Source of the DNA: Brevundimonas sp. | GTDB lineage: Bacteria; Pseudomonadota; Alphaproteobacteria; Caulobacterales; Caulobacteraceae | DNA: 64,000 nucleotides | Assembly: GCF_016463295.1 (NCBI RefSeq) | Contig: NZ_JAEMRO010000002.1 | Span: forward strand, 1 to 64,000 | Direction: 5' to 3' | Part shown: positions 27,525-49,840 of the stretch, piece after piece | Layout: every line of letters begins with the position of its first letter | Numbering within the stretch: position 1 is the stretch's first letter | Translations under genes and position numbers: made by a program | Notes under the pieces: generated by a model | Database searches by the model: none | What the model was told of the DNA's origin: nothing | What the model saw: only the letters and a program-made list of their open reading frames with translations

Positions 27525-28394
27525 TCAGGCTCCGCGCAGCCGTCCGCGCTTCTCCAGCGTGATCGTGTCGCCGTCGAAGCGGATCCAGGCGGGCTCGATG
27601 AGCTGCAGCACATTGCCCGGCTCGACCTCGAAGGCGCGGCCGAAAACGGACTGGGCGCGGGTGCCGCCGCCGAACTGATACAGTTCGCCCCATTGCTGGA
27701 TCGGCCCGTCAGACGGCAGCAGCAGACCTAGCGACGGCCGGTCGTCCAGCGGGACGAACCAGAAGGGGCCTTCCTCGTCGCCGACGGTCGGACGCAGGGT
27801 CTCGCCCGGCCCGGTCGTCACGAAGTCGGGGCCATAGGCGCGCTGGAACTCCGCCATGCCGCCCGCGCCGTCCAGCAGTCCTTGATAGGCCACCAGCAGG
27901 GCCTTGAACTCAGGCGCCCGGCTGCGCTGAGCGATCAGGTCGGCGTCTGCGGTCGAAGCCGTGGCCGCGGGCGCGAACAAAGTTGAGGCGCGGCTGGACG
28001 ACGGGTTGGTGGCGGGGCGCGTCTCTGGTGCCGGAGCGACAGGCTTGCGCGCCAGTCGGGTCGGAACCTGTTCAAAAAAGTCCTCGGCCAGGTCGCCGGG
28101 TCCCCGCGTCTCGGCATGATCGGGGAAGGGCGCCAGCGTCTCGTCATCGCCGGTCAGCAGGCGCGGCATGACTGTGTCGAGGCGGCGGCGCAACTGGGCG
28201 ACCTCGGCGGACAGGGTCTCGATTTGGCGCTGCTGACGCGACAGCAGTCGGTGCAGGGTCTCCAGCGTGACTGTATCATCAGCCTTCGCCGACGGCGCGG
28301 TCGCTTCGGACGGCGACCCGTCCGAGGATTCATACTCCGGCTCCGCCCCCGGCTTCTTGCGGCCCCCCAGGCCCCACAGGCGGTCCCCGGCCAC
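27525..28394 (-). CDS. Uncharacterised protein with central coiled coil, last gene of the actin/tubulin-like operon
   Basis: LETLHRLLSRQQRQIETLSAEVAQLRRRLDTVM heptad-like segment; conserved-looking C-terminal globular part. 3-bp spacing from the upstream gene. Confidence 0.75.
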   Translation of the reverse strand: MAGDRLWGLGGRKKPGAEPEYESSDGSPSEATAPSAKADDTVTLETLHRLLSRQQRQIETLSAEVAQLRRRLDTVMPRLLTGDDETLAPFPDHAETRGPGDLAEDFFEQVPTRLARKPVAPAPETRPATNPSSSRASTLFAPAATASTADADLIAQRSRAPEFKALLVAYQGLLDGAGGMAEFQRAYGPDFVTTGPGETLRPTVGDEEGPFWFVPLDDRPSLGLLLPSDGPIQQWGELYQFGGGTRAQSVFGRAFEVEPGNVLQLIEPAWIRFDGDTITLEKRGRLRGA

Positions 28395-28396
28395 GG

Positions 28397-31300
28397 TCAG
28401 ATATCCCTGACGACGATGCGTCGGTCGCGCTCGATCAGGGGCAGGGCCATGATCGACACCAGTTCGCGCAAGGCGGTGATGAAGGGCGGCTCGAACGGCT
28501 GGGCATCCTCGTCGGAGAAGGCGTCGGCGTCCAGATCGTGCAGCGAATCCGACAGGTTCTGGCGCACCTTTGCCCGGATGTCGTTCAGGGCCCCGCGTTG
28601 TTCAACGTCGATGTTGATGTCGGTCAGCTTGCGCAGGGCGATCAGGAAGCGGCTCAGGTGGGCCAGTTCGATGCGGTCGACCTCGGTCGCGCTTTGCAGG
28701 GCCGTCAGGGGGGCGGTGGCCAGAGCCTGGGTCTCCACACCCCCGACCATGACGTCGATGTCCTCGCCCAGGACAGCCAGACGGCTTTCGCCGCCCGTCG
28801 GGTCCTCGCGGCGATCGACCAGCAGCCCTTGCGCCACCTCATGCTTGGCCTCGTGCGGGCCGGAGAAACGGAACTGGATGGCGACATCGGCCGGATTGTA
28901 CTCCGCCGCTGCGATGGCCAGGCGCACCAGCTGGGTCAGCTCGTCGTCCGAACCGCCCGTGTGGAACTGGCGGAACAGGGTCGAGCCGCGCCCTGCGAAG
29001 GCGACGGTCAGCCGGTCCAGATCGGCCCGGCGCAGGCCCGAGTTCGGATCGGCTACCAGCTGACCCAGCACCAGGCCGACGTAATACATCAGCCCGCCCA
29101 GGGCGACGGACGCCACCTGCTGCAGGCCTAGACCCGCAGGCTCGGACGCCAGAAGGCCGAAGTTGTCGGCGAACCGCTGGGCGAAGGCGGGCTTGTTGAC
29201 ATATAGCTCGACGAAATCGCGCCGACCGTCTGCGCTGAGCGGATCGCCCTCGCTGAGGCCGGTCGAGACCTCGCTCATGTCGATCTTGCGCAGCACATCG
29301 GGGTTGTTGGCCAGATAGGCGGTGAAGAAGTCCCCGCCCGCGACCTTGAACGAATTGCGCCAGAATGGCTTGCCGTCCCGCCACAGGGCGATGTCGGTGG
29401 TGCCCCCGCCGATGTCGAGCACCAGCATCAGCTTCTCGGCCCCTTGGGTGACGAAGACATGGGCGGCCGCGGCCCCTTCGGTCTTGCGCAGAAAGGTCGG
29501 GCGACCGTTGGCCGTCGTGTCGCCGGGCGGGCCGAACAGGGCGGACCAGTTGCGGCGCAGCTCGTTCTCCAGCTGGCGATGCTGCGACGGCTTGAACGCC
29601 TGCGGGTAGGAGAAGCGCCAGTCGATGGCCAGGGGATCGGTGCCCTCGGCCACCAGTTCGGCGGCCGACATCATCATGATCTGGCGCAGGAAATGGGTGG
29701 CCAGAGCCCGCTCTGACTGGGTCTCGCCCCACTTCAGCCGGAACTTCAGCAGTCCTGCGCCGGTCCATTCGCGGAAGATGTTGTCCGACAGGCCCAGATC
29801 GGCCTGACGCGCGATGAAGCCGTCGAAGTTCGGGACGAAGAAGACATTGTCGGCAAAGCCGTGCTGATGCATCCGCCCCTCGCGGACGCGGGCCTGAAGC
29901 TCCGGCGGCAGGGCCGGGCGGAACTCGCGCAGCTTGGCCACGGTAGGGAAGGGGGTCTCGTGCTTCTGTAGCGGGAAGAAGCCGAGGTATTGCCCGACCA
30001 GTTCCTCGCGGCGCCGCGCCTGCTTGGCTCGCACGCCGAAGGGAAAGACGATGCGGTCCTGAAAGGCCAGCCGCTCGCGCAGGCCGTTCCGCTCGGTGTA
30101 GACCACGGTGTTGGTGGTGCCGAAGTCGACCGCCACCTTGGCCTCCAGCGCCGAGGACCGGGTCTGGGCGAACCGGACCAGTGCCATGCCCGCAGGCACG
30201 AAGTCGCCGGTCGCCGTCTTGCGGGCGAAGAAAACCGCGTCGGCACCGCCCGGCAGATGATGAAGCTCGGCCACGCCCTGGTCGGTGGCGGTAAAGCCGA
30301 TGCGTTCGACCAGAACCTCCTGCTGGCCGCTGGCCGTCGTGCCGCGCACGGTGGAGATTCGCTCGGGCTGGAGCGCCGAGGCAGGCGGGACGAAGCCGAA
30401 CAGGTCGTCGATTGCAAGGGTGGACGAGTCCGACCACAGCCGGATGCGACGGGCGCGGTCGGACATATCCAGCGAGGCCCCGCGCACCTGGCTGGCCATC
30501 ACCTCGGCGGTGACGGCGAACCGGGGCCGCATGTAGTAGTTGATGCTGGCGGTGAAGTGCAAGAAGGTCCAGCGCCAGCCGGGGGCCTGAAAATTGGGCC
30601 AGAAGGCCAGGTCGTCCGGGACTTGAAGCACCTGTTTGCTCTGGTCCGCGCGCGGCAGATCGCGGCGTACCGCATGCGGACGGCCGGATTGAAGCCGTAG
30701 CCGCAGGCGGACCACGGCGTCGCCGGAACTTGGCGACATATCCAGCGCCTCGGCCAGGCCCTGACCGGGCACCAGCATCAGAGCCAGCGGCGACAGCGGC
30801 AGCAGGGCCGACTGGAAGGCGGCGGGGTGTGCCTCGTTGATCGTCTGGCTGTCCAGGGTGATCAGGCTGTCGGTGAACAGGTCGGATGGCCGGATGACCA
30901 GCCAGCCCTCGGCCTCGGCCTCCTGGCGGATGATGTCGAAGGTGGCGGGCCGCATGGCGTCGGCCAGGCTGTGCCGACCCCAGACGGAGATGGATTCCGG
31001 GCGCTTGCCCAGGGTCTCGGCCAGATCCGGATCGACCAGGATCGCGCCCTTGAACAAGCTGCGGGCAGGCGGCGACAGCTCGATGGCCGCGTCGGCCTCG
31101 GTCGGGGGCACGCTGGTGCCGTCGAACTGCCAGGTAGAGCCCAGCACCTGGGCATGCAGCGGGCTGGGCCAGGCCAGGTCGATGGTGGCCGGGTTTAGCC
31201 CGCGCACTTCGGGGGCCGCTTTTGCATTGGCGGCCCGATGGAAGGCCTCCAGCGCCTGGGCCAGACCGCCACGCAGGCGGGGTTCCAGATCGTCGCGGGC

Positions 31301-31969
31301 GCTGAGACGCGTCCACATCTGGCGGATGTAGTCGGCCAGGATGCGGAACTGACGCTCCGACAGGGCCGCGTCGATCGGGTCGGACAAACCGTCCTTCAGC
31401 CACGGCACATCGGGACAGCGCACCTGTTCCGACGCGCGCCCGGCGGCGACCAGACTGGTCGGGGTCAGGAAGCCCAGCGGGCGACCGGGCCCGAAGGCGA
31501 AGGCCCCGGCCCCGCCGCGTTCCTGGATCATCAGGGCGACGGGACGTTTCCAGCTCAGTTCCGGCACCAGTACGCGTGCGGGCTCCAGGTCCAGCAGGGT
31601 GCGGGCGAACAGGCTGTTGCGGCGGCTGGCTTCCAGATCGACGGGCTGAGCCGTCAGCGTATAGGCCGCGCTGAACTCGGGCATCAGGGCGATGGTCGCG
31701 ATCAGGGCGCGCCACTGGGGCAGGACGGTCGTGTGAAGCGGATGCGACGCATCGAACAGGGCGCGGTCGAAGACCAGCATCTGGGCCCAGGGGTCCGGGA
31801 TGCTCTTCACGTCGCTGCGTTCGGCCTGTTTCTCGCCGATGAACAGGGCGTCAGCCAGCTTGTCGAGATGGTCGATCGGGGTCCAGGCCCCGGCCTTCTT
31901 GGCCTCGGCCAGGGGGCCGTCGGTGATGATCGGCGGCAGGTTGTAGGTGTACAGTCCGCTGTGACGCAT
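28397..31969 (-). CDS. Giant (about 1190 aa) protein with C-terminal actin/Hsp70-like ATPase fold; possibly SrfB-like
   Basis: Phosphate-1 AKVAVDFGTTNTVVYTERNG, phosphate-2 LMLVLDIGGGTTDIALWRDGK, adenosine-type LTVAFAGRGSTLFRQF. Start ATG 31969 (MRHSGLYTYNLPP), 2 bp after the upstream stop. Confidence 0.8.
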   Translation of the reverse strand: MRHSGLYTYNLPPIITDGPLAEAKKAGAWTPIDHLDKLADALFIGEKQAERSDVKSIPDPWAQMLVFDRALFDASHPLHTTVLPQWRALIATIALMPEFSAAYTLTAQPVDLEASRRNSLFARTLLDLEPARVLVPELSWKRPVALMIQERGGAGAFAFGPGRPLGFLTPTSLVAAGRASEQVRCPDVPWLKDGLSDPIDAALSERQFRILADYIRQMWTRLSARDDLEPRLRGGLAQALEAFHRAANAKAAPEVRGLNPATIDLAWPSPLHAQVLGSTWQFDGTSVPPTEADAAIELSPPARSLFKGAILVDPDLAETLGKRPESISVWGRHSLADAMRPATFDIIRQEAEAEGWLVIRPSDLFTDSLITLDSQTINEAHPAAFQSALLPLSPLALMLVPGQGLAEALDMSPSSGDAVVRLRLRLQSGRPHAVRRDLPRADQSKQVLQVPDDLAFWPNFQAPGWRWTFLHFTASINYYMRPRFAVTAEVMASQVRGASLDMSDRARRIRLWSDSSTLAIDDLFGFVPPASALQPERISTVRGTTASGQQEVLVERIGFTATDQGVAELHHLPGGADAVFFARKTATGDFVPAGMALVRFAQTRSSALEAKVAVDFGTTNTVVYTERNGLRERLAFQDRIVFPFGVRAKQARRREELVGQYLGFFPLQKHETPFPTVAKLREFRPALPPELQARVREGRMHQHGFADNVFFVPNFDGFIARQADLGLSDNIFREWTGAGLLKFRLKWGETQSERALATHFLRQIMMMSAAELVAEGTDPLAIDWRFSYPQAFKPSQHRQLENELRRNWSALFGPPGDTTANGRPTFLRKTEGAAAAHVFVTQGAEKLMLVLDIGGGTTDIALWRDGKPFWRNSFKVAGGDFFTAYLANNPDVLRKIDMSEVSTGLSEGDPLSADGRRDFVELYVNKPAFAQRFADNFGLLASEPAGLGLQQVASVALGGLMYYVGLVLGQLVADPNSGLRRADLDRLTVAFAGRGSTLFRQFHTGGSDDELTQLVRLAIAAAEYNPADVAIQFRFSGPHEAKHEVAQGLLVDRREDPTGGESRLAVLGEDIDVMVGGVETQALATAPLTALQSATEVDRIELAHLSRFLIALRKLTDINIDVEQRGALNDIRAKVRQNLSDSLHDLDADAFSDEDAQPFEPPFITALRELVSIMALPLIERDRRIVVRDI

Positions 31970-31970
31970 C

Positions 31971-33551
31971 TCAGGTCCTCGTCGCGGCGGGCGGTTGAAC
32001 GTCGGCAAAGGCGTGCAGGGCCGAAACGAACCAGCCCAGGCCACGCTGGTTGACCTCCGGGGCCGTCTCGTTGGTCAGGCGGCCCATCAGATCGGCGGCG
32101 GTCGGCGGGGCCTCGCCCGTCTCGCCCGGCATGACGATACTGCCATAGGCGTCGTCATAATCGGCTCCCTCGAAGGCGCGGGGCACCTGGACCGGCTGGT
32201 TCGGGCGCTCGCCGGGGCGGATGAAGGCGTCGGTGTTCCACAGGCCGAAGTTGATGCGGGCGCGACGGGCGTGCAGCTCTATCCCCCCCGCCCAGCCCAG
32301 CACCCAGCGGCAGTAGGCGTCGAGCGCGGCGACCTCAGCCTCGGCCGGGGTGGCGTCGAACTTGATCGTGTCGATGCGCTGACGGCGATACCAGGGGTCG
32401 GTTCGGAACGCCTTGAACAGGCCCGAGCGTGGGCGGCTGACCAGCGGGCCCCAATGCTTCCAGGCCACGGCAAAGCGCAGCAACTGGCCCAGCTTGTGAT
32501 AGGGCGCGTCCGGGTCGTTGTCGGGCGAAGGCAGGTCGGACCAGGTCAGGGCATCGGCGGACGTTCGGGCACTGGCCAGCACCTGACCGGACACGCCCTT
32601 CAGATCGGCATTGAAGAACCTGCAGGCGGCCAGGGCTCCGAACAGCTCGGGGGCCAGCGGCGGATTGGCCTGACCGTTTGCCCCGCGGCTGTGATAGCCC
32701 AAGGCGAACGGACGGTCCCAGCCGACAAGATACAGCTGATCGAAGATCGGCTCGTCCCGTAGCAGGTCGGAATAGTGTTTCAGCGCGCTCTTGGACTGGA
32801 GCACCAGTTCCTCGGACAGGGCGACATTGTCGCGCGAGGCATCGCCGTCGCGGCCTGGCGGGTCGAAGTCGAAATAGGGCAGCATCAGCACGCCGCCGAT
32901 CTGGACGTTGGATGCCCCCTGCGGCAGGCGCCGCCGGATCAGCCGGGCCAGGGTCGGAAAGCCCGCCGCGCCCGTGCCGCCGAAGACAGAGCCGACCAAC
33001 AGGACGCGCACCTCCGTCGCACCGCGCGCGGCGTCCAGAGCGGTGGTCAGCTTGTCCCAGAATTCGATGTCGTCCTCGATACGCGAGGCCATGGCGGCGG
33101 CCCCGATGTGCGGACGACCGCGATAGCCTTCGTCCAGCGGCAGGTCCTGTTCGGTGTCGGCGGCGCTGGTGCCTTGGGCAAACAGGCCGTCGAATAGCTG
33201 CCGCTCACCGGTCGGCATGGATTCGCGGTCGAAGATGCGGGCCAGCGACGCGGCCTTGTCCGGATGCGGGATCCAGACTTCTTCAGCGGGCGAAAGCGAC
33301 TGGATGTCTGTGGCGAACAGGGGACTGCCGCCTAGAACATGCGCGCCGCCTGTGCTGCGCCACAGGGCGCGTGCGCTGACGATGGTGGCCAGCAGCTGGG
33401 CCGTGCGCCCGACATTGCCGTTGGAGCCGTCCTGATCGACCAGGCCGACGGTCAGGTTGTCGCCCGCCAGGCCGGCGACGGCGGCGTGCAAGGTCGATTC
33501 GACGACCTTGGCCCCGGTGCCCCCAACGCCAATCAGGATGTTGACGGCCAT
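31971..33551 (-). CDS. Tubulin/FtsZ-like protein
   Basis: N-terminal MAVNILIGVGGTGAKVVESTLHAA and internal VLLVGSVFGGTGAAGFPTLARLIRRRL (GGTGxxG signature-like). Start ATG 33551 overlapping the upstream TGA. Confidence 0.75.
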   Translation of the reverse strand: MAVNILIGVGGTGAKVVESTLHAAVAGLAGDNLTVGLVDQDGSNGNVGRTAQLLATIVSARALWRSTGGAHVLGGSPLFATDIQSLSPAEEVWIPHPDKAASLARIFDRESMPTGERQLFDGLFAQGTSAADTEQDLPLDEGYRGRPHIGAAAMASRIEDDIEFWDKLTTALDAARGATEVRVLLVGSVFGGTGAAGFPTLARLIRRRLPQGASNVQIGGVLMLPYFDFDPPGRDGDASRDNVALSEELVLQSKSALKHYSDLLRDEPIFDQLYLVGWDRPFALGYHSRGANGQANPPLAPELFGALAACRFFNADLKGVSGQVLASARTSADALTWSDLPSPDNDPDAPYHKLGQLLRFAVAWKHWGPLVSRPRSGLFKAFRTDPWYRRQRIDTIKFDATPAEAEVAALDAYCRWVLGWAGGIELHARRARINFGLWNTDAFIRPGERPNQPVQVPRAFEGADYDDAYGSIVMPGETGEAPPTAADLMGRLTNETAPEVNQRGLGWFVSALHAFADVQPPAATRT

Positions 33552-34180
33552 CAGCGGCTCCTGCCGATCGGAATGAGAAGGGTCGCCATGGGCACCGAGG
33601 CGCGCAGCACGGCGGGCGCGGCCAGGGCGGTCGCGACATAGTAGCTGAGCCAGGTCAGGACGATGCCGCCCGCGATGAAGCCGCCCGTGGCCGTGGCTGT
33701 AGCCTCTGCCGCCGGCCCCTGACGGTTGAAGGTCAGCCACAGAAGGATTGCGGCCGCGACGGTCACGACCAGATATCCGACCAGCCAGACGCCCTGCGCC
33801 GTGCGCTGGGTCTCGGGACGACCCACTTTCGATACCTGGCTCCAGGCCAGCAAGGTCCAGCCCAAGGCCACGGCGGTGGTGATGATCATCAGCTTCGTGA
33901 AGCCATCGACCAGACCGTCGGCCGCACGCTTGCGCTGGGTCTCCATCTGGTTGCCCAGGGCATTGGTGGTGACGGTGCCGCCACCATCCAAGGCTCCGTC
34001 GAGGGCGGCGTCCAGAGCATTGCCCTGATCGACCGTCGCTGGTGCGCTGGTGGTCATCGGGGCGGGTTCGAGAAACCGTGTGCTGGCCGTTTGCCAGGTC
34101 AAAAGCCCCCAACCGAGTGCGAAGACGACGACGCCCGTGACCAGCACGACGGCGAGGGCCTGAAGCCAGTTGCGGGTCAT
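33551..34180 (-). CDS. Membrane protein with about 4 predicted TM helices
   Basis: Hydrophobic stretches WLQALAVVLVTGVVVFALGWGLL, LMIITTAVALGWTLLAW, GVWLVGYLVVTVAAAILLWL, GGFIAGGIVLTWLSYYVATAL; translationally coupled to the tubulin-like gene. Confidence 0.75.
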   Translation of the reverse strand: MTRNWLQALAVVLVTGVVVFALGWGLLTWQTASTRFLEPAPMTTSAPATVDQGNALDAALDGALDGGGTVTTNALGNQMETQRKRAADGLVDGFTKLMIITTAVALGWTLLAWSQVSKVGRPETQRTAQGVWLVGYLVVTVAAAILLWLTFNRQGPAAEATATATGGFIAGGIVLTWLSYYVATALAAPAVLRASVPMATLLIPIGRSR

Positions 34181-34214
34181 CGAAAACTCCAGAAGGGGGC
34201 AGGCATCGAAAGTG

Positions 34215-35591
34215 TCAGGGCTCGACCCTCACCAGAACCGCCAGACTGGCCAGTGGCAAGCCCTGCGGCGGGGTAGTCTCGCGCAACCCCGCCTCAAGCT
34301 GCTCGGCGAAAGCGGCAAGATTGAGCGTGGGGAAGAAGGCGGGCGAGGCCGCCGAGACGGCGCGGGCACGGTCGGGCGAGACGCTCCAGTCGCGCATCCA
34401 CTTGGTCTCGGGCGGAGCGGCCGTGAAGTTGTTCGTCGTCAGCTGACCCTGGATCAGATAGTCGCTGCCCGCGACGAGGGCGGCGGTGGATCGACCGTCC
34501 AGCGTGAAGGTCGCGCCGTCCGGGCCGTCCGGACGCCAGGCCCCGGACAGGGCCGGCTGGCTTTCCCAGGCTCCCGCACCGCAACCGCCCGCACGTCGCC
34601 AGACCTGGGTCTGGCCGCCCAGCTTCCCGCGCCAGACGGCGCCGGGCAGGATGCGGGCATCGGCGACGACGGGGATGCGCAGACTGGCCTGACCCGTACG
34701 CAGCTGGTCCAGGCTGACGCGGACCTGGGGCAGGGCCTCGGACTGATCGCCGTCGATCAGGCGCTGGGCTGCGATGTCGCCGGTGGTCTGGACCGGGGCG
34801 CTGGCCCCGAGCCAGGCGGTCGCGGGCTCGGGCGTGAACAGGGCAAACTTGCTGCGGTCGCCGCTCAGGGCCGGGCTGCCGGAACGGGACAGGGTGCGAT
34901 AGGCAGACAGCACTTCCGATCGGCTGCCAACCAGAAGGATAAAGAGCGGCCGCTCGCGGGCCCCGGCATGGGTGCCGACGCCCGGCACGTCATAGACCGG
35001 GCCGGCATAGGGCGCGCGCAGGCCGATCACGCCGATCGACTTGCCCTTGGCCAGCAGGGCACGGATCGGCTGGCCCAGGGCGATCTCGGCACTGCCCTGG
35101 AACGCCGTGTTCGACAGCCACAGGTCCGTGACGACGACGTCCAGCCCGGGCCCCGTGCGGTCTGCGATACGGGTCAGGACGCTGTCGATCCGGCTTTCCT
35201 GATTGTCGCAGTTCGCCTGCTGTCCGCAGCGATAGAAGCCGGTGGAGGCTAGGCCGGAGCCGGAGGGCAGGGGCGTGATCCGTTCGCCAAAGCGCAGCCA
35301 TTGCGCCTGAACCCCAGCCTCGCGGGCGTGACTGGCCAGCAGCGGCTGCAGATCCCCGAGCGGCCGGACGGAATCAGTCGCGCCATCGACATAGCCGGCG
35401 ATGCTTTCGGACCCGTCCCAGAAGACCCGCATCGGCCCTTTCGCAACATCGGCGGCGGGACGCAGGGCAGGCGCGGCACCGTCCGGTGCGCAGAGCGCCC
35501 CCATCGCCTGATCTCCGCACCCGGCCAGAAGGACGGCGGTGGCGAGGGCGGCGCAGGCAAAGAGTTTGCTGACGGGCAACGAACTCCCCAT
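34215..35591 (-). CDS. Putative lipoprotein with vWA-like MIDAS motif
   Basis: Lipobox LLAGC; MRVFWDGSESIAGYVDG (DxSxS) and LDVVVTDLWLS; first gene of the minus-strand operon. Confidence 0.7.
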   Translation of the reverse strand: MGSSLPVSKLFACAALATAVLLAGCGDQAMGALCAPDGAAPALRPAADVAKGPMRVFWDGSESIAGYVDGATDSVRPLGDLQPLLASHAREAGVQAQWLRFGERITPLPSGSGLASTGFYRCGQQANCDNQESRIDSVLTRIADRTGPGLDVVVTDLWLSNTAFQGSAEIALGQPIRALLAKGKSIGVIGLRAPYAGPVYDVPGVGTHAGARERPLFILLVGSRSEVLSAYRTLSRSGSPALSGDRSKFALFTPEPATAWLGASAPVQTTGDIAAQRLIDGDQSEALPQVRVSLDQLRTGQASLRIPVVADARILPGAVWRGKLGGQTQVWRRAGGCGAGAWESQPALSGAWRPDGPDGATFTLDGRSTAALVAGSDYLIQGQLTTNNFTAAPPETKWMRDWSVSPDRARAVSAASPAFFPTLNLAAFAEQLEAGLRETTPPQGLPLASLAVLVRVEP

Positions 35592-35667
35592 ACGCTCGGT
35601 TGCGGATTAAGGGCTTGGTTTACTACGCTCTTCGCGCGACTGTCCATGCTGCTTCACGGGGGTCTTC

Positions 35668-36657
35668 TTGTCCGGTTCGCCGATTTCCATCGCCTTCGTG
35701 ATCGAGGGCCAGACGGTACGACTGGGCGACCCCAACCAGTGGCGGGCTGCGGTGCTGAACGGCGACCTGACCCCGGCGACCCGCATCGTGGTGGCCGAGG
35801 ACGGGGGGCAGATCTACAGCGGTCCCGCAGAGGACTATGACGGCCTGAGCCCGCACTTCGAGGCGGCGGACGCGCAGGGCGAGCCGGTGGCTGATGATAC
35901 GCCGGCCGCAGCGGACTCGCCTGTGGTCACACCGACGTTCGAGACGTCATCGGCCGCAGACGACGCCTTTGTGCCTGTGCCGCCCCCTGAATCGCCCGCC
36001 TCGCCCGCGCCGCCGCCCGAACTGCCGGTCTGGCAGCAACCGCGCCCGCCGCGCTGGCCGGTGCAGGAGCCGCCCGCCATTCCTCGAACCGCCACGGCGG
36101 CCGAGGCGGCAGCATGGCGCGCCGGGCAGCGCCCCCTGCCGCCGCCGAAGAAGAAGAGCAATGCGGGACTGGGGTGCCTGATCCTGATCGTGGTGCTGGC
36201 GGGGGCCGGGCTGCTGCTGTCTCGCTGTACGGGCGATGCGACCCGCCGGGCCGAGGTGCGCTATGCCGAGGTCCAGACCGCCTTGACGGACGGACCCGAC
36301 GGTTCGCCCCAAGCCGTGTTGGGACGCGGAGACACCGTGACCGTCCTTTGGCCTCGCACCGGCCAGCCGCAGGACTGGCTGCAGATACAGGGCGGACGGT
36401 TCGACGGACGCTATGTGCGCACCGAGGCCCTGTCCGACCGTCGCCGCCCGACCATCGTCCTGACCGATCGCACGCGAACGATCACGACAGAGGATGTACG
36501 CGTTCGGGCCGATCCGGCCGGAGAACCGTTGGACGTCGTGAATACGGGCGATCAGGTGCATGAGATCGGCGTGACCGACAACGGCTGGTCCGAGATCGAA
36601 TACGGCCAGGGCGTCGCCTATGTCGCCACACGCTACACCCGGGCACCCAGACGCTAG
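35668..36657 (+). CDS. Membrane protein: GYF-like N-terminal region, Pro-rich linker, TM helix, SH3-like repeats
   Basis: Probable TTG start; QTVRLGDPNQWRAAVLNGDLTPATRIVV; Pro/Ala-rich segment; GLGCLILIVVLAGAGLLL TM; two SH3-like segments (QAVLGRGDTVTVL, DVRVRADPAGEPLDVVNTGDQV). Confidence 0.65.
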   Translation: MSGSPISIAFVIEGQTVRLGDPNQWRAAVLNGDLTPATRIVVAEDGGQIYSGPAEDYDGLSPHFEAADAQGEPVADDTPAAADSPVVTPTFETSSAADDAFVPVPPPESPASPAPPPELPVWQQPRPPRWPVQEPPAIPRTATAAEAAAWRAGQRPLPPPKKKSNAGLGCLILIVVLAGAGLLLSRCTGDATRRAEVRYAEVQTALTDGPDGSPQAVLGRGDTVTVLWPRTGQPQDWLQIQGGRFDGRYVRTEALSDRRRPTIVLTDRTRTITTEDVRVRADPAGEPLDVVNTGDQVHEIGVTDNGWSEIEYGQGVAYVATRYTRAPRR

Positions 36658-36674: not shown

Positions 36675-37427
36675 TCAAAGTCCGAGCGGTCCGAACAGCC
36701 AGGTCAGCCAGATGCCGAGCGCCAGGAAAGGGCCGAAGGGCAGGCGATCCTGCCCGGACACCCTGCGCCCCAGAACGAGGCGTCCGGCGACCAGGCTGAG
36801 CGCCGCGACGGAGGCCCATAGCAGGACGCTGGGCAGGCCGATCCAGGCGACCCAGGCCCCGCCCGCCGCCAGAAATATGGGATCGCCGCCGCCCAGTCCG
36901 TCCCGTTTGCGCAAGCGACGATAGGCAAAGGCCAGCAACCACAGGCCCAGGAACCCTGCCACCGCTCCAATGGCCGAATGCAGCACGCTGCCCGTCGGCA
37001 GGACGGCCGCCGCGACCAGGCCGCTTGCAAGCAAAGGTAGGGTCAGGGCATCCGGCAGCCAGAAATGCTCGGCATCCACCACGGCGATCAGAATCAGCTG
37101 CCAGCCGAGCAGGGCCGTGAATGCCGCGGACGGAAGGTCCGGCTGCGACAGACCGGCCCAGACCCCGACGCCTGCGCAGGCCAGTTCGATCAGGGGGTAG
37201 CGGATCGGGATCGTCGACCCGCAATCCCGGCATCTGCCCCTGGCAAAAATGTAACTGAGGACCGGAACCATCCGCTGGGGCGGCAGGGCGCGGTCGCAGC
37301 CTCCGCAATGGGAGCGGCCGAATATGACACCGCGTTCCTGCGGCAATCGCAGGCTGACCAGGCCGATGAAACTGCCGGCGATCAGGCCCAGACCGGCCAG
37401 GGCGATGGCGAGGAGAGGGGGCGTCAA
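36675..37427 (-). CDS. gspO: Prepilin peptidase (type IV leader peptidase)
   Basis: GSFIGLVSLRLP; paired cysteine motifs CGGCDRALPP and CRDCGSTIPIRYPLIE; membrane aspartyl protease GGGDPIFLAAGG; near the gsp operon. Confidence 0.88.
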   Translation of the reverse strand: MTPPLLAIALAGLGLIAGSFIGLVSLRLPQERGVIFGRSHCGGCDRALPPQRMVPVLSYIFARGRCRDCGSTIPIRYPLIELACAGVGVWAGLSQPDLPSAAFTALLGWQLILIAVVDAEHFWLPDALTLPLLASGLVAAAVLPTGSVLHSAIGAVAGFLGLWLLAFAYRRLRKRDGLGGGDPIFLAAGGAWVAWIGLPSVLLWASVAALSLVAGRLVLGRRVSGQDRLPFGPFLALGIWLTWLFGPLGL

Positions 37428-42179: not shown

Positions 42180-43064
42180 ATGGTCATCGCCGCCTTTCGC
42201 AACTGGAACCGTCAGCTCCGGCCGACCGGTGATGCGCCGGGCGTCGGGCGGGCGCGTCTGCGGCGCGGGATCGAGGTCGCACTGGCCATCGTCCTGCTGG
42301 TCCAGATTGCGCGACTGGTCTGGCTGTTTCTGGCTCCGTCCCCCATCATCAGCGCCAATGCCGCACCGGCGACGGTCGCAGCGCCGGATTACTCCATCTT
42401 TCAGCGGTTCGACGCCTTCTTCCGCACCGGTGCCCCGGGGGCCCTGACCGAGGCGACGGCTCAGGGCAGCAGCCAGATGCGCCTGTACGGCGTCCGCGCC
42501 GACGGCACCGGCGGCGGCTCGGCCATCATCGGCCTGGCCGACGGACGTCAAGTCTCGGTGGGTGTGGGCGACGAGATCGAGCCGGGCCTGATTCTGCGCT
42601 CCGTCGCCAACGATCACGTGGTGATGGCGCGTGGCGAGTCGCTCAGCCGCCTGATGTTCACAGAGCTGCCGATGGGGGCTGCTGCGCCACCCCCGCCGCC
42701 GTCCGAGCCGCAAGTCGTTACGCCCCAGGGCGCGGCCCCGGCCGAAGCCGGTCAGGCGGCAGCGGCCACACCGGCCGGTCCCAGCGTCGATCCGGCGCGG
42801 CTGATGGCCCAGGCAGGCTTGCGTCCGCGCATGCAGGGGCTCGGCATCAACGGCTTTACCGTCAGCGGTACCGGCGACGGCTCGGCCCTTGCGGCGGCGG
42901 GGCTTCGCTCGGGCGACGTCATCCTGGCCGTCAACGGGCAGGCGCTGGACAGTCCGGCCCGTATTGCCGGCCTGCGTGGCCAGCTTTCCAACAGCACCAG
43001 CGCCGAGATCCGCTTCGAGCGGAATGGCGTGGAGCAGACCACTACTATAAGGACAGGCCGCTGA
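42180..43064 (+). CDS. gspC: Type II secretion protein C (inner membrane, PDZ)
   Basis: N-terminal TM, homology-region-like LYGVRADGTGGGSAIIGLADGRQVSVGVGDEIEPGLIL, PDZ-like GLRSGDVILAVNGQALDS; upstream of gspD. Confidence 0.87.
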   Translation: MVIAAFRNWNRQLRPTGDAPGVGRARLRRGIEVALAIVLLVQIARLVWLFLAPSPIISANAAPATVAAPDYSIFQRFDAFFRTGAPGALTEATAQGSSQMRLYGVRADGTGGGSAIIGLADGRQVSVGVGDEIEPGLILRSVANDHVVMARGESLSRLMFTELPMGAAAPPPPPSEPQVVTPQGAAPAEAGQAAAATPAGPSVDPARLMAQAGLRPRMQGLGINGFTVSGTGDGSALAAAGLRSGDVILAVNGQALDSPARIAGLRGQLSNSTSAEIRFERNGVEQTTTIRTGR

Positions 43065-45160
43065 TGCGATCCCGCCCCCTGCTGACGGCCGCCGTGGCCG
43101 CGCTTCTGGCCGTTCAGGCTCCGCTGGCGACTATGCCTACCTATGCCCAGGCGGCAGGCGGCCAGACCCTGAACGTCCAGGGGGCCGACATCCGCGCCTT
43201 CATCCAGGACATCTCCCGCTCGACGGGCCGCACCTTCATCGTCGATCCGGGCGTGACAGGCACGGTCACCGTGTCCAGCGACCGGAATCTGAGCCGGGCC
43301 CAGCTGTTTGAGGTCTTCCTGTCGACCCTGCGCGCCAACGGCCTCGTGGTGACGCCGACGTCGTCGGGTGCCTATCGCATCAGCCCGGCCCAAGGCGCGG
43401 CACAGGGGCCGTCGACCGTCGGCAATGAGCGGTTTTCGACCGAGGTCTTCGCGCTTCGCAACATCGACGCCGCCTCGGCCGCCGAGACGATCCGGCCTCT
43501 GGTCGGGGCGCAGGGTCAGGTGCTGGCCAACCCCGGGGCCAACAGCATCGTGGTCGCCGATTTCGCCGACAATCTGGCCCGTGTCCGTGCCCTGATCGCG
43601 CGCATCGATGTGGACCGGACCGGGTTCGAGGTCGTGACGCTGGAGAACTCCTCGGCGCGCGAGATCGCGGCGGTACTGCAGTCGGTACTGGCTCCGCCCG
43701 GCGGGCAGCCGGGGTCGGGCATGGTGTCGGTGACGCCCGTCGAAAGTTCCAATTCTATCGTGTTGCGGGGCGATCCGTCGGCCATCGCGCGGGTGCGGCC
43801 CCTCGTGGACGATCTGGACCGCCGCGCCCTGTCGGCGGACGACGTCAAGGTGGTGTTCCTGGAGCACGCCAATGCCGAGCAACTGCTGCCGGTGCTGCAA
43901 CAGATCGTCGGCCAGCAGGTGACGGCGGCCAGCGCCAATGCGACGCCGCGCGAGCCGGGCACGTCGCGCGCCGGAGCGACGACCGACGACGTGACGCCAG
44001 CTTCGACTTCTGCACCCGCCGCGCCGCTGCCGGGCCAGCGCGCCACGATCGCGCGCTTCCCCGGAGCCAATGCCCTGGTCATCTCCGGCTCAGCCGACAC
44101 CCAGCGCATGCTGTCCGAAGTCATCCGCCAACTGGACCAGCGCCGCCAGCAGGTGCTGATCGAGGCCATCGTGGTCGAACTGTCGGACACCGCGGTCAAG
44201 GAGCTGGGTGTCCAGTGGCTACTGGCCGGAGAGGACGGCGCGCCCATCGGCCTGACGAACTATTCCAACAGCGCGACGCCTCTGCTGCCCATCGCGGGCG
44301 GTGCGGCGGCGACCGATCTCGACGAGGATGATCCCCTGCGTCGCCAGCTGCAGAATCTCGCGGTCAACAGCCTGCTGGGAGCCAATGGCTTCATTGGTGG
44401 GGCCGGGGGGCGGATCGGCGACGGCCTGTTCGGCTTCATCATCAATGCGGCCAAGACCGACAGCGGCTCCAACCTGTTGCAGACGCCGTCGCTGATGACG
44501 CTGGACAATGAGGAGGCGACGATCCTGGTCGGCCAGGAAGTGCCGATCACGACGGGCGAGACACTGCTGGACGGCAACTCCAACCCGTTCCGCACGACCC
44601 AGCGCCAGGACATCGGCGTCAAGCTGATCGTGCGGCCCCAGATCAATGCCGGGGGCTCTATCACCCTGTTCCTGCGTCAGGAGGTGTCCAGCATCAACGG
44701 CGTGCTGACCGATGGGGCGAACGATCTGGTGCTGAACAAGCGGGAACTGGAAACGACCCTGGTCGTGGACGACGGCGACATCGCCGTAGCGGGTGGCCTG
44801 CTGGACCAGAACGACCGTCTGGCCGTGGATGCGATACCGGGTCTGGGACAGTTGCCCGTCATCGGGGGTCTGTTCCGCTCGACCACCCGCCAGCGGGGCC
44901 GGACCAATCTGATGGTCTTCATTCGCCCAACCATCATCCGCAGTGCTGCCGACGCCCAGACCCTAGCCGCCGACCGTTGGGGCTATATGCGTCAGCAGCA
45001 GCTGACGGCCGTGCCTGACCGCGAGCCCAGCCTGGACGAGATGCTACGTGACTATATGCGGGCCCAGCCGCCGGTCGCGCCCTCCACGATGATCATCGCG
45101 CCGGATGCGGTTACGGCCGAACCCCTGCCGCCCGTCGACAACCCTGTCGCACCACAGTGA
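43064..45160 (+). CDS. gspD: Type II secretion secretin
   Basis: Signal peptide; LNVQGADIRAFIQDISRSTGRTFIVDPGVTGTVTV N0/N1-like domain; LLQTPSLMTLDNEEATILVGQEVPI secretin core. Confidence 0.95.
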   Translation: MRSRPLLTAAVAALLAVQAPLATMPTYAQAAGGQTLNVQGADIRAFIQDISRSTGRTFIVDPGVTGTVTVSSDRNLSRAQLFEVFLSTLRANGLVVTPTSSGAYRISPAQGAAQGPSTVGNERFSTEVFALRNIDAASAAETIRPLVGAQGQVLANPGANSIVVADFADNLARVRALIARIDVDRTGFEVVTLENSSAREIAAVLQSVLAPPGGQPGSGMVSVTPVESSNSIVLRGDPSAIARVRPLVDDLDRRALSADDVKVVFLEHANAEQLLPVLQQIVGQQVTAASANATPREPGTSRAGATTDDVTPASTSAPAAPLPGQRATIARFPGANALVISGSADTQRMLSEVIRQLDQRRQQVLIEAIVVELSDTAVKELGVQWLLAGEDGAPIGLTNYSNSATPLLPIAGGAAATDLDEDDPLRRQLQNLAVNSLLGANGFIGGAGGRIGDGLFGFIINAAKTDSGSNLLQTPSLMTLDNEEATILVGQEVPITTGETLLDGNSNPFRTTQRQDIGVKLIVRPQINAGGSITLFLRQEVSSINGVLTDGANDLVLNKRELETTLVVDDGDIAVAGGLLDQNDRLAVDAIPGLGQLPVIGGLFRSTTRQRGRTNLMVFIRPTIIRSAADAQTLAADRWGYMRQQQLTAVPDREPSLDEMLRDYMRAQPPVAPSTMIIAPDAVTAEPLPPVDNPVAPQ

Positions 45161-45175
45161 TACGGTAACGGCGTC

Positions 45176-46693
45176 ATGATCACCCTGGTCAATCCGACAC
45201 TGCCCTATGGCTTCGCCAAGCGGCATGGCGTCATCCTGCTGGACGCGGGCGAGGTGGCGGTGGTCGGCCTTCGTGAGGGTGCGGACCCCCAGGCCCTGAT
45301 CGAGACGCGGCGCGCGCTGGGGCGACCGTTGCATGTCGAACGCCTGAGCCAGGCGGAGTTCGACCGGCGTCTGTCACAGGTCTATGCGGGCGATCACCTG
45401 ACCGCGACGGACGGTGACGACCTGTCCATGCCCTCGGGTCTGGACAGTCTGATCGACGACATGCCCGCCGCCGCCGACCTGCTGGATACGGCCGACGACG
45501 CGCCGGTCATCCGGCTGATTAACGGCATCATCGCCGAGGCGGTGCGAGCTGGGGCGTCGGACATCCATCTGGAGCCGTTCGAGAGCACGCTGACCGTTCG
45601 CATGCGGGTCGATGGGGTGCTGCGAGAGGCGTTGTCGCTCAATCCGCGGATCACGCCCTTGCTGGTGTCGCGTATCAAGGTCATGGCGCGGCTGGATATC
45701 GCCGAGAAGCGGGTGCCGCAGGACGGGCGCATCCCCTTGGCTTTGGGCGGCAAGACGCTGGACGTGCGTGTCTCAACCCTGCCGTCTCGGGCGGGCGAGC
45801 GGGTGGTGCTGCGTATCCTCGACAAGGATCAGGCCGACCTGAGCCTTGAACAACTGGGTATGGCCCCTGACGCGCTGGAGGCCTTCAGGACGTCACTCAA
45901 GGAACCGAACGGGATCATCCTCGTCACCGGACCAACAGGCTCGGGCAAGACCACCAGCCTGTATGCGGGTCTCAGTCTGCTGAACGATGCGACGCGCAAC
46001 ATCCTGACGGTCGAGGATCCGGTCGAATACGCCATCGACGGGGTCGGCCAGACCCAGGTCAATACCAAGGTCGGCATGACCTTCGCAGCGGGGTTGCGGG
46101 CCATCCTGCGTCAGGACCCGGATGTGGTCATGGTCGGGGAAATCCGCGACGTGGAGACGGCGCGCATCGCCGTTCAGGCCTCGCTGACCGGGCATCTGGT
46201 GCTGTCGACGGTGCACACCAACGATGCGGCGGGGGCGATCACCCGGTTGCGCGACATGGGCGTCGAGCCCTTCCTGCTGGCCTCGACCCTGCGACTGATC
46301 GTGGCGCAGCGGCTGGTGCGCAGGCTGTGCGGCGAGTGCCGCCGGGCCGAGCCTGCGGATGCGGCAACGGCACGGCTGGTCGGGGTCAAGGCCGGTCAGA
46401 CGGTGTGGCGGCCCCAGGGCTGCGTCCACTGCAACCAGACCGGCTATGTCGGTCGGGTCGGTCTGTACGAACTGATCAAGGTCGACGATCGCGTCCGCCG
46501 CCTGATTGCCGCCGAGGCCGAGGAGGAGGCGATCAATGCCGTGGCCTTTGACGCCTCGGGCACTCTGACCCGGCGGGCGCGTGCGCTGGTGCTGGACGGC
46601 ACAACCTCGGTCGAGGAAGCGGTGCGGGTCACGCGTCAGGAGACGGCCGAGGCGCACGATGTCGTCGAACCGGTACGGGAGGCCGTCGGCTGA
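45176..46693 (+). CDS. gspE: Type II secretion ATPase
   Basis: GIILVTGPTGSGKTTSLYAGL Walker A; AILRQDPDVVMVGEIRDVETARIAVQASLTGHLVLSTVHTNDA; CGECRR...CVHCNQTGYVGRVGLYE. Confidence 0.97.
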   Translation: MITLVNPTLPYGFAKRHGVILLDAGEVAVVGLREGADPQALIETRRALGRPLHVERLSQAEFDRRLSQVYAGDHLTATDGDDLSMPSGLDSLIDDMPAAADLLDTADDAPVIRLINGIIAEAVRAGASDIHLEPFESTLTVRMRVDGVLREALSLNPRITPLLVSRIKVMARLDIAEKRVPQDGRIPLALGGKTLDVRVSTLPSRAGERVVLRILDKDQADLSLEQLGMAPDALEAFRTSLKEPNGIILVTGPTGSGKTTSLYAGLSLLNDATRNILTVEDPVEYAIDGVGQTQVNTKVGMTFAAGLRAILRQDPDVVMVGEIRDVETARIAVQASLTGHLVLSTVHTNDAAGAITRLRDMGVEPFLLASTLRLIVAQRLVRRLCGECRRAEPADAATARLVGVKAGQTVWRPQGCVHCNQTGYVGRVGLYELIKVDDRVRRLIAAEAEEEAINAVAFDASGTLTRRARALVLDGTTSVEEAVRVTRQETAEAHDVVEPVREAVG

Positions 46694-47907
46694 TGGCGGC
46701 GTTCGACTATGTGGCCGTGGACGCGGCCGGCCGCACGGTAAGCGGAGCGCTGACCGCAGCGGACGAAGGGGCGGCGCGTCAGGCGCTGGACCGGCGTCGG
46801 CTGATGGCGCTGGAGATCACCCCGACACGCCGGACGGTTCACAAGGCGGACGGCAAGGCCAAAGCCTGGGGCCGTCTGAACGCCAAGACCCTGGCCCTGA
46901 CCACGCGGCAGCTGGCGACGCTCGTCTCCGTCGCGCCGATCGAGGAGGCGGTGCGGACCATCGCACTCCAGGCCGATCGACCCGCCGTGCGGGCGGTGCT
47001 GGAAGGGGTGCATGCAGGGGTGCTGGAGGGGCATCGGTTGTCCGAGGCCATGGGCCGGCAGGGCAAGGCCTTTCCACCGCTGTATCGCGCCATGGTGTCT
47101 GCGGGCGAGAGCTCGGGGGCGCTGGAGCCCATTCTGGAGCGGCTGGCCGACGGGCTGGAACGGGACCAGACGGTGCGCGGCAAGGTGATCACGGCTCTGG
47201 TCTATCCTGCAGTTCTGGCGGTCGTGGCCCTCGGCGTTATCGGGGCGCTGATGACCTTCGTGGTGCCCAAGGTGGTCGATCAGTTCGACAGCATGAACCA
47301 GACCCTGCCGCTGCTGACCCGGCTGGTGATCGGCCTGTCCGAGGCGATGCATACCTGGGGCTGGCTGGCCATCCTGCTGATGGTCCTGACGGGCATCGGT
47401 GCGGCTGTGGCCCTGCGCAATCCGGCGACGCGGCTGAAGGCGGACACTGTGGTCCTGAAACTGCCGATCGTCGGTCGGCTGAGCCGCGATCTGCACGGGG
47501 CGACGATGGCGCGGACGCTGTCGACCATGATCGCCTCGGGCCTGCCGGTGCTGGAGGGGCTGACAATCACGGCGCGGACGGTGTCGAACCGCCGTCTGCG
47601 TCTGGCCACCGAGACCATGGCCGATGCCGTGCGCGAGGGCGGGGGGCTGAGTGCCGCCATGCGCCGCGCAGACGTCTTCCCGCCGATCCTCGTTTACATG
47701 ACCGCTTCGGGCGAGAGCAGTGGGCGGCTGGAGCCCATGCTGGACCGCGCCGCCGACTATCTGGATCGCGAGTTCGCCACCTTCACCGCCGTGATGCTGA
47801 GCCTGCTGGAGCCGGCGATCATCGTGGTCATGGGCGGGGTGGTGGCGCTGATCGTTCTGTCGATCCTGCTGCCGATTCTACAGATCAATACCCTGGCGAT
47901 GGGGTGA
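46693..47907 (+). CDS. gspF: Type II secretion inner-membrane platform protein
   Basis: AFDYVAVDAAGRTVSGALTAADEGAARQAL; FPPLYRAMVSAGESSGALEPILERLA; VYMTASGESSGRLEPML. Confidence 0.95.
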   Translation: MAAFDYVAVDAAGRTVSGALTAADEGAARQALDRRRLMALEITPTRRTVHKADGKAKAWGRLNAKTLALTTRQLATLVSVAPIEEAVRTIALQADRPAVRAVLEGVHAGVLEGHRLSEAMGRQGKAFPPLYRAMVSAGESSGALEPILERLADGLERDQTVRGKVITALVYPAVLAVVALGVIGALMTFVVPKVVDQFDSMNQTLPLLTRLVIGLSEAMHTWGWLAILLMVLTGIGAAVALRNPATRLKADTVVLKLPIVGRLSRDLHGATMARTLSTMIASGLPVLEGLTITARTVSNRRLRLATETMADAVREGGGLSAAMRRADVFPPILVYMTASGESSGRLEPMLDRAADYLDREFATFTAVMLSLLEPAIIVVMGGVVALIVLSILLPILQINTLAMG

Positions 47908-47910
47908 GGA

Positions 47911-48363
47911 GTGAGTGAGATGATCGAGTCAAAAGCTGCCCGCAAGCGTCGGAAGCGCCAGGGATTCACATTGGTGGAGCTGATGGTGGTGATCGTGATC
48001 ATCGGCCTGCTGGCGACCGTCGTGGCGATCAATGTCCTGCCCAGCCAGGACCGTGCCATGGTCGGCAAGGCCAAGGCGGACATCTCCGTTCTGGAGCAGG
48101 CGATCGAGACCTATCGGCTGGACAACCTGACCTTTCCCGACGACCTGAATGCTCTCACAACCGCGCCTGCCGACCTGGCCCAGTCGGAGCGGTATCGCCA
48201 GGGCGGCTATATCCGGCGCCTGCCCGAGGACCCTTGGGGTAACCCCTACCAGTATCGCCGCCAAAGCGCGCATGGCGGCCAGTTCGACGTCTACTCCCTG
48301 GGCGCGGACGGCAAGGAGGGGGGCGAGGGCAATGATGCAGACCTCGGGAACTGGCAGACGTGA
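47911..48363 (+). CDS. gspG: Major pseudopilin
   Basis: RQGFTLVELMVVIVIIGLLATVVAINVL class III leader; DPWGNPYQYRRQSAHGGQFDVYSLGADGKEGGEGNDADLGNW. Confidence 0.96.
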   Translation: MSEMIESKAARKRRKRQGFTLVELMVVIVIIGLLATVVAINVLPSQDRAMVGKAKADISVLEQAIETYRLDNLTFPDDLNALTTAPADLAQSERYRQGGYIRRLPEDPWGNPYQYRRQSAHGGQFDVYSLGADGKEGGEGNDADLGNWQT

Positions 48364-48392
48364 AGGGGGCGCTAGCGCACGCGACGCGGTCG

Positions 48393-48438
48393 CTCGCTGC
48401 TTGAGCGCGATGGCCGGGGTCTGCGCTCAAGCAGCGAG
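48393..48438. repeat. Perfect 16-bp inverted repeat spanning the probable gspH start
   Basis: ctcgctgcttgagcgc (48393-48408) and gcgctcaagcagcgag (48423-48438), 14-nt loop gatggccggggtct containing ATG 48410; imperfect complementarity continues outward (gcgctagcgc / cgatagcgctc). Confidence 0.85.
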
Positions 48439-48901
48439 GCTCCGTGAGCCGAGCGATAGCGCTCTGTCAAAGCGGCAAGGCTTTACCCTGGTCGAACTGC
48501 TGATGGTCGTCGCCATACTGGGGTTGGCGGCGGGGGCTGTGGTGCTGTCCGTGCCAGACCCGCGACCGCCCGTAGGGGCTGAAGCCGAGCGGTTCGCCGC
48601 ACGACTGGTGCGGGCGCGCGAGGAGGCGGTGCTGACCAATCGCTCCATTGCGGTGGAGGCGACGGCGCGCGGCTACGGCTTCAGCCAGTTCGACGGCGTT
48701 CAGTGGACGGCCCTCACTGACGGCCCCTTCGGCAAGGAGGTCTGGCAGACGGAAACGTCGGCAGGCCTGCCCAGCGCCACCCTGCGCGTTGTCTTCGATC
48801 CCACCGGTGCGAGCGAACCTGCGACTGTTACCCTGTCGCGTGACGGCCAGTCCAGCACAGTGTCCGTCGATGGCGCGGGCGAGGTGTCGGTCGATGACTA
48901 G
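48410..48901 (+). CDS. gspH: Type II secretion pseudopilin H
   Basis: KRQGFTLVELLMVVAILGLAAGAVVLSV; position between gspG and gspI. Start is uncertain (ATG 48410 or TTG 48401). Confidence 0.85.
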   Translation: MAGVCAQAARLREPSDSALSKRQGFTLVELLMVVAILGLAAGAVVLSVPDPRPPVGAEAERFAARLVRAREEAVLTNRSIAVEATARGYGFSQFDGVQWTALTDGPFGKEVWQTETSAGLPSATLRVVFDPTGASEPATVTLSRDGQSSTVSVDGAGEVSVDD

Positions 48902-49256
48902 CGCATCGCGCCAGGGATTCACCCTGATCGAACTGCTGGTCGCTCTGGCGGTATTCAGCCTCGCGGCCATGGCCCTGCTGAACCTTGCGGGAGAGAACAC
49001 GCGGTCGCAGGCGCGGGTCGAGGATCGCACACTGGGTGGAATCGTGGCCGAGAATTTGGCGGTCCAGGCGGCCATCGCACCCAGCTTGGGGGAGGGCGAG
49101 ACTTCTGGTCAAACCACCTTGGGTGGCCGTTCATGGCGATGGTCCCAAACCGTCTTTGCGACGGACGATCCGGAGATCCAGCGCGTTCTGATCCGCGTCT
49201 CGACCGAGGAAGGCCAGGCCGCCGACCGCACCCTGTTCAGGGCGAGGGCGGGATGA
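48894..49256 (+). CDS. gspI: Type II secretion pseudopilin I
   Basis: SRQGFTLIELLVALAVFSLAAMALLNLAGEN; overlaps the gspH end. Confidence 0.9.
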   Translation: MTSASRQGFTLIELLVALAVFSLAAMALLNLAGENTRSQARVEDRTLGGIVAENLAVQAAIAPSLGEGETSGQTTLGGRSWRWSQTVFATDDPEIQRVLIRVSTEEGQAADRTLFRARAG

Positions 49257-49840
49257 AGCGCTCAGGATTCACCTTGGTTGAAGTGCTCATCTCCCTGCTG
49301 ATCTTCGCCCTGATCGCGGCGGCGGGAGCGGCGGTGTTAAGCCTGTCGATCGACAACAAGTTCGCCATCAAGGCGGCGGCCGACCGCACAGCGGACCTTC
49401 AACGGACGCGAGCCCTGCTCAGGGCCGATCTGGGTCAGGCGACGGCGCGGCGCACGCGCGGGCCGACCGGGCGCCCGCAGCAGCAGCCGATCACCGGGGC
49501 CGTTCAGGCGGGCGATGCCGCCCTGACCCTGACCCGCGCCGGCTTGAGCAATCCGGGCGATCAGGCACGGCCATCGCTGCAGCGGGTCGAATACCGCCTG
49601 GTCGAAGATCGGCTGGAGCGGCGGGTGTCCGGCTATCTGGACGGGGCGCGGCCCGGCCCCCCGCAAGTCTTGTACGAAGGCGTCAGCGGCCTGAGCGTCA
49701 CCTTTCTCAAGGACGGCACCGAGGCCCCGGCCTTCAACAGCCGTCTCGACAGCCCGATGCCCGATGCAGTGCGGGTGGTGATGACGCTGCAAGGCTATGG
49801 GCCAGTGGATCAGCTGTTCCTGGTTGGGGGCGGGCGATGA
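49253..49840 (+). CDS. gspJ: Type II secretion pseudopilin J
   Basis: MKRSGFTLVEVLISLLIFALIAAAGAAVL; ATGA overlap with gspI. Confidence 0.9.
   Translation: MKRSGFTLVEVLISLLIFALIAAAGAAVLSLSIDNKFAIKAAADRTADLQRTRALLRADLGQATARRTRGPTGRPQQQPITGAVQAGDAALTLTRAGLSNPGDQARPSLQRVEYRLVEDRLERRVSGYLDGARPGPPQVLYEGVSGLSVTFLKDGTEAPAFNSRLDSPMPDAVRVVMTLQGYGPVDQLFLVGGGR

Follow-up and report, generated by a model that had tools for sequence, protein, structure and literature searches.

An operon pairing an actin-like ATPase and a tubulin-like protein with a putative vWA-like lipoprotein in Brevundimonas and other bacteria

Closest described systems

To our knowledge, the main example of a dedicated module that combines actin-like and tubulin-like proteins is FtsA-FtsZ. 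Here, we describe a five-gene operon from a Brevundimonas sp. contig, found in a stretch of 64,000 nucleotides (hereafter, the window), which encodes an actin/Hsp70-fold ATPase together with a divergent tubulin-like protein, a vWA (von Willebrand factor A)-like lipoprotein, a protein with four transmembrane (TM) segments and a coiled-coil protein. With a probability of about 0.5, we read it as a horizontally sparse but conserved envelope module, in which a membrane-tethered actin-tubulin pair of nucleoside triphosphatases (NTPases) would be coupled to a periplasm-facing vWA lipoprotein and, working in an FtsA-FtsZ-like manner, would organise or gate an envelope process other than division. The likeness to the FtsZ-FtsA divisome core is a functional analogy limited to the parts list, that is, a tubulin-like/actin-like pair with membrane and coiled-coil partners. 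In contrast to the divisome proteins, those of the module fall below the family cut-offs, both for FtsA (16 bits vs. 31.8) and for Tubulin/FtsZ (12.1 bits vs. 33 for the Tubulin family with the window protein), and the module is accessory, being absent from most relatives.

The tubulin family had been predicted in 2010 to take part in membrane-remodelling systems with vWA proteins (PMC2875224). The window operon resembles these FtsZl1/Tubulin_2 systems in having a Tubulin_2 domain above cut-off, membrane proteins, and a vWA-like lipoprotein whose gene is part of the operon or lies next to it in divergent orientation. However, canonical FtsZl1 proteins are of ~900–1100 aa, with coiled coils and an alpha-helical C-terminus, whereas the window tubulin has 526 aa, and the canonical FtsZl1 proteins of Pseudanabaena (920 and 1108 aa) gave 13 bits or no match with our tubulin profile. 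In addition, FtsZl1 has been described with kinases, a GTPase and OmpA proteins as its partners, with no actin-fold ATPase among them, and no protein kinase or GTPase was recurrent among the 83 proteins flanking the module, in which an OmpA-type neighbour was seen at locus L071. The module lacks features that define FtsZl1, namely the long coiled-coil FtsZ and the kinase, GTPase and OmpA partners. The unnamed neighbour families B1–B9 of the 2010 study may include the actin-like gene. One Pseudanabaena genome holds both arrangements. The gene of the 920-aa FtsZl1 is flanked there by those of a 613-aa protein with a vWA motif and of a protein of 1054 aa (locus L095, 6980–14921), and the vWA-TM-tubulin-actin operon lies separately.

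Counterparts of the operon genes occur in Synechocystis PCC 6803, where sll0443–sll0449 form a predicted seven-gene transcription unit with a predicted CRP site (PMC2633013). Disrupting sll0445, sll0446 or sll0447 by insertion impaired phototaxis in each case and also altered photosystem II (PSII) fluorescence (PMC9880817), and Sll0445 and Sll0446 were deregulated in a comFB mutant (PMC12313861). This unit contains orthologous tubulin and actin genes in the same order, with a coiled-coil gene next to them, their products being Sll0445 (Tubulin_2), Sll0446 (actin-like/FtsA domain) and Sll0447 (DivIC-type coiled coil), and in the Synechocystis loci L030 and L098, the vWA and TM genes lie upstream, as in the window. 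The published forward primer for sll0445 matched the S. salina tubulin gene exactly and that of L098 with a single mismatch, and the forward primer for sll0446 matched the actin genes with three and two mismatches, respectively (shuffled minimum of seven); the remaining published primers were uninformative on orthology. The competence genes rntA and rntB of S. elongatus, considered as possible homologues, encode putative pilins and were dropped.

In contrast to our locus, the Synechocystis literature deals with three single genes in one species, and neither the vWA/TM components nor a cross-phylum operon are described there. Among the open-access papers searched, none was found to describe the operon as a whole. 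The original prediction, made from the sequence of the window, could not match the locus to any characterised system; this holds for the operon as a unit, but not for its genes, given the Synechocystis mutants and the 2010 proposal for the tubulin family. The locus is real and conserved, and it has been characterised in part in a single species.

Composition and conservation of the operon

All six predicted open reading frames (ORFs) were present (Table 1). Along the minus strand, the operon runs from the lipoprotein gene through those of the 4-TM, tubulin-like and actin-like proteins to that of the coiled-coil protein. The tight junctions initially described were found for the 4-TM and tubulin-like genes, which share one base (TGATG at 33551), and for the tubulin/actin and actin/coiled-coil gaps (1 and 2 bp), but not for the lipoprotein/4-TM gap, which is of 34 bp instead of 1–2 bp. 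The sixth gene is divergent from the operon and lies 76 bp upstream of it, as predicted. The best starts for the actin-like and tubulin-like genes are the ATG codons at 31969 (1190 aa) and 33551 (526 aa), chosen because the longer starts of the mechanical ORF list run into upstream genes. GC content was even along the whole window.

Table 1. Coordinates of the operon genes in the window, of the divergent neighbour, and of operon extensions in other genomes
Feature	Position	Strand	Basis
vWA-like lipoprotein, 458 aa	34215..35591	-	lipobox LAGC; N-terminal vWA-like domain (MIDAS DGSES, TDL motif); C-terminal beta-rich domain
4-TM inner-membrane protein, 209 aa	33551..34180	-	hydropathy scan
Divergent tubulin/FtsZ-like (Tubulin_2) protein, 526 aa	31971..33551	-	PF13809 above cut-off
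Actin/Hsp70-fold ATPase, 1190 aa	28397..31969	-	motifs VDFGTTNT, LDIGGGTTDIAL, AFAGRGS; profile, AlphaFold and Foldseek
Coiled-coil protein, 289 aa	27525..28394	-	family found in alphaproteobacterial loci; hydropathy comparison
Divergent SH3 membrane protein	35668..36657	+	SH3_3 match; one TM at 166–184
Operon extensions with Hsp70	L064 11495–15151; L069 11447–15067; L067 11474–16459; L061 10672–12234; L065 5909–7459		

The predicted tubulin-like nature of the 526-aa protein was borne out by a PF13809 (Tubulin_2) score of 44.4 bits vs. a gathering cut-off of 27, and the same family was matched by 54 of its 56 relatives (E ≤ 0.01), in which the T1 (GxGGTGAK) and T4 (FGGTGA) nucleotide-loop motifs are invariant or nearly so. 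For the 1190-aa protein, the three actin-clan motifs were present, the family profile matched MreB structures at 1.6e-7, with FtsA and Hsp70 more weakly matched, and the AlphaFold model (predicted local distance difference test, pLDDT, 83.5; predicted template-modelling score, pTM, 0.77) retrieved DnaK/BiP and MreB in Foldseek with a probability of 1.00 and E ~1e-6; motifs, profile and model together confirm the predicted actin/Hsp70 ATPase fold. It shares this fold and the phosphate-1, phosphate-2 and adenosine motifs with the MreB/Hsp70 ATPase clan, but it is not MreB, DnaK or FtsA by curated cut-offs, and it carries an additional region of ~600 aa, N-terminal to the ATPase domain, without a recognised family. 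No Hsp70 substrate-binding domain was recognised in the Pfam scan, and SrfB (PF07520, of SrfABC) was not among the Pfam hits at E ≤ 1.

The lipoprotein carries a lipobox and a perfect DxSxS metal-ion-dependent adhesion site (MIDAS) motif at residues 59–63; a MIDAS-like motif is present in 42/45 members of the family, and the TD motif is invariant. Its model (pLDDT 86) matched integrin I, CMG2 and vWF A1 domains in Foldseek with probabilities of 0.97, 0.94 and 0.84, all at E-values above 1e-3, and no Pfam vWA match was found. Because no Foldseek match reaches E 1e-3, the vWA assignment proposed originally is moderately supported, resting on the motifs and these I/vWA-type matches. The hydropathy scan agreed with the four predicted TM segments of the 209-aa protein, with three to four across 58 family members, and its gene holds the same position in nearly all loci. 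The coiled-coil proteins homologous to the fifth gene product usually have a signal peptide or TM segment ahead of the coiled coil, as judged from a hydropathy comparison.

The actin alignment, run against 84,980 species genomes, yielded 65 loci, and the vWA-TM-tubulin-actin order was recovered by profile mapping in Alphaproteobacteria (Caulobacteraceae and sphingomonads), Cyanobacteria, Bacteroidota (Rufibacter and Dyadobacter), Ignavibacteria and Calditrichota, whereas Gemmatimonadota loci showed vWA-tubulin-actin with no TM gene detected. Most cyanobacteria have the vWA gene in divergent orientation. Since the gene order, whose conservation the original prediction had left to be checked, recurs in five to six phyla, the locus is more than a chance arrangement. 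As these loci had been selected by actin, a second sample was chosen by tubulin alone, and among 146 cyanobacterial genomes, 15 tubulin genes were found in 14, with the actin gene adjacent to 13 and a vWA gene with 14 of the 15. Furthermore, gene-tree distances were correlated for tubulin and actin (0.974), tubulin and TM (0.940), and tubulin and vWA (0.904), values reached in 0 of 999 permutations, although species history in common contributes to them.

The module is rare. Carriers amounted to 2/119 genomes of the family, 2/385 of the class and, counting full-length actin matches, 2/399 of the phylum. The module is thus present in ~0.5% of Alphaproteobacteria, compared with ~10% of Cyanobacteria. 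Most loci lie on large chromosomal contigs, and some cyanobacterial copies are on plasmids (plasmid-record rows were left out of the alignments for the structure models). The closest relatives of the window actin-like protein belong to Brevundimonas pishanensis (L007) and to a metagenome-assembled genome of Caulobacteraceae, while identity to the cyanobacterial counterparts is of ~30% for tubulin and ~20% for actin. No relatives were detected when viral contigs were searched for the actin-like protein or phage records for the tubulin. Phylum-wide actin matches at 1e-5 to 1e-10 corresponded to background actin-clan proteins and were discarded as orthologues. A search for an empty site in 40 congeners, based on the flanking cysE-like and prepilin-peptidase-like genes, revealed that relatives do not have these two genes side by side, and no clean empty site was therefore found.

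Accessory and neighbouring genes

The divergent membrane protein carries a C-terminal SH3_3 domain (35 bits vs. a cut-off of 27). Its N-terminal domain of ~50 aa was found in 15 proteins from eight loci, all of them alphaproteobacterial within the search set, and proteins with this domain recur beside the operon in alphaproteobacterial loci. Tail to tail with the SH3 gene is that of a small membrane protein with CxxC pairs (36675–37427, minus strand), which reads like a prepilin peptidase but gave no NCBIfam match. Farther along the window, the type II secretion system (T2SS) genes gspC, D, E, F, G, H, K and L occupy positions 42180–51932 on the plus strand.

Additional genes differ among lineages. 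A true Hsp70 (PF00012) follows the operon in Bacteroidota, Ignavibacteria and Calditrichota (Table 1), and in the Bacteroidota operons, it is followed by a protein of ~690 aa without Pfam match. In cyanobacterial loci, a domain of ~70–80 aa without Pfam match appears 3' of the actin gene (e.g. L025, 8573–15001; L039, 12596–15502), repeated within and between several successive genes in ~105 ORFs and in many cases accompanied by a coiled coil or zinc ribbon. A relationship between this repeated domain and the C-terminal domain of the window coiled-coil protein appeared in an iterated search, whereas the reciprocal search gave only one alphaproteobacterial protein; this transitive link is not claimed here. 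Two related cyanobacterial loci have a Uma2-family-like gene inserted at the tubulin-actin junction (L030, 6562–7653; L099, 7185–7745). Finally, MotA/MotB- or OmpA-like pairs adjoin both this module and canonical FtsZl1 genes (L071, 10553–12969; L099, 13462–16001; L094, 4728–7373).

Possible roles of the module

The presence of two cytoskeleton-type NTPases, a lipobox-bearing vWA-like protein and membrane partners, all strongly co-conserved, makes an envelope-associated, nucleotide-driven assembly the most natural reading, in partial agreement with the original prediction of an assembly that would also span the envelope. In the mechanism that we propose, the tubulin-like GTPase would assemble or switch with GTP, and the actin-like ATPase would recruit it to the 4-TM/coiled-coil anchors, the tether to the inner membrane probably being the 4-TM protein, usually along with a single-pass coiled-coil protein. 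The assembly state would be coupled to the periplasm-facing vWA lipoprotein, which may read or grip an envelope partner through its metal site. By analogy with FtsZ-FtsA, the tubulin-like protein would be held at the membrane by the actin-like one, serving not division but a process of the envelope or surface, which in Synechocystis would include phototactic motility. This proposal builds on folds or fold-level motifs, membrane and lipoprotein signals, gene order, co-inheritance and the published phenotype of the counterparts, and it presupposes a physical complex, polymerisation, an anchoring geometry, a MIDAS ligand, a direction of the signal and a target.

Several points weigh against it. 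Complex formation and polymerisation both have to be assumed, and because the T7 catalytic loop and the C-terminal half of the tubulin-like protein could not be assigned, its formation of filaments is an unproven proposal. The vWA-type Foldseek matches of the lipoprotein have E-values over 1e-3, and the window coiled-coil protein does not have the membrane anchor seen in its homologues. In addition, the change in PSII fluorescence could mean that the effect on motility of the Synechocystis mutants was indirect.

Among the alternatives, the one that survives best, though unlikely, is that of an accessory that positions or regulates a type IV pilus (T4P) or type II filament machine. Phototaxis that depends on T4P is lost in the Synechocystis mutants, and co-fractionation and affinity purification–mass spectrometry (APMS) associate Sll0445 with Slr2015/Slr2018 (PMC9880817); the CRP site predicted ahead of the transcription unit points the same way, although it was not found in the Synechocystis loci examined here, and the T2SS cluster of the window is 6–16 kb away, with a prepilin-peptidase-like gene adjoining the locus. 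However, in a PilT-family search of 16 carrier genomes and the host, over-cut-off PilT was present only in the two cyanobacteria and one Gemmatimonadota among the carriers, with Ignavibacteria near the cut-off. The alphaproteobacterial carriers gave only CpaF/GspE-level matches (CpaF-level in B. pishanensis), and the host, unlike the Synechocystis setting, had no PilT above cut-off, its matches being only CpaF/GspE-like. Since three Bacteroidota carriers showed no PilT-family match at all, the module is not just a T4P accessory, and either phototaxis would exemplify a wider role or the pilus function would be a specialisation of cyanobacteria. Furthermore, the module is found in ~10% of cyanobacteria, where T4P have been described as "apparently universal" (PMC12288463).

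Slightly more doubtful is a machine for the quality control or assembly of envelope proteins, in which the Hsp70-fold ATPase would switch in the manner of a chaperone and the tubulin-like protein would provide a scaffold driven by GTP. DnaK/BiP ATPase domains are among the best fold matches, a true Hsp70 gene lies downstream in three lineages, and loss of LexA raises the transcripts of sll0443–0445 and sll0448 (PMC4759255). Nevertheless, profile and fold matches to MreB are equally good, the Pfam scan recognised no substrate-binding domain, and the operons examined from Alphaproteobacteria and Cyanobacteria had no Hsp70.

An anti-phage or conflict system, also raised initially, seems improbable. 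It would fit the patchy distribution, the cyanobacterial plasmid copies and the occasional ZorB/MotB-like neighbours, but the PADLOC matches to module genes were marginal (≤15.5 bits), each PADLOC family matched 1 of the 83 neighbours with no recurrent defence family, no effector domain was recognised, and the gene trees co-evolve over deep time. Tubulin and actin folds both serve in partitioning, and some copies are plasmid-borne, but a segregation system like TubZ or ParM is very improbable, since most loci are chromosomal, the companion genes encode a lipoprotein and TM proteins, and no centromere-binding protein was recognised.

If the envelope module reading is right, this would be an undescribed prokaryotic machine in which NTPases of the actin and tubulin families share a single, dedicated complex that is anchored to the membrane and acts outside division. 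The complex would be coupled to the vWA lipoprotein in the periplasm and conserved as a whole in lineages as far apart as Alphaproteobacteria, Cyanobacteria and Bacteroidota, a claim that we hold tentatively and at slightly less than even confidence. Should it represent a second, independent actin-tubulin pairing across phyla, it would offer a natural experiment in the evolution of such pairs and of their coupling to the membrane. In addition, the module would provide a mechanistic frame for the unexplained phototaxis phenotype of sll0445–0447, and it predicts that the function of these genes extends beyond pili.

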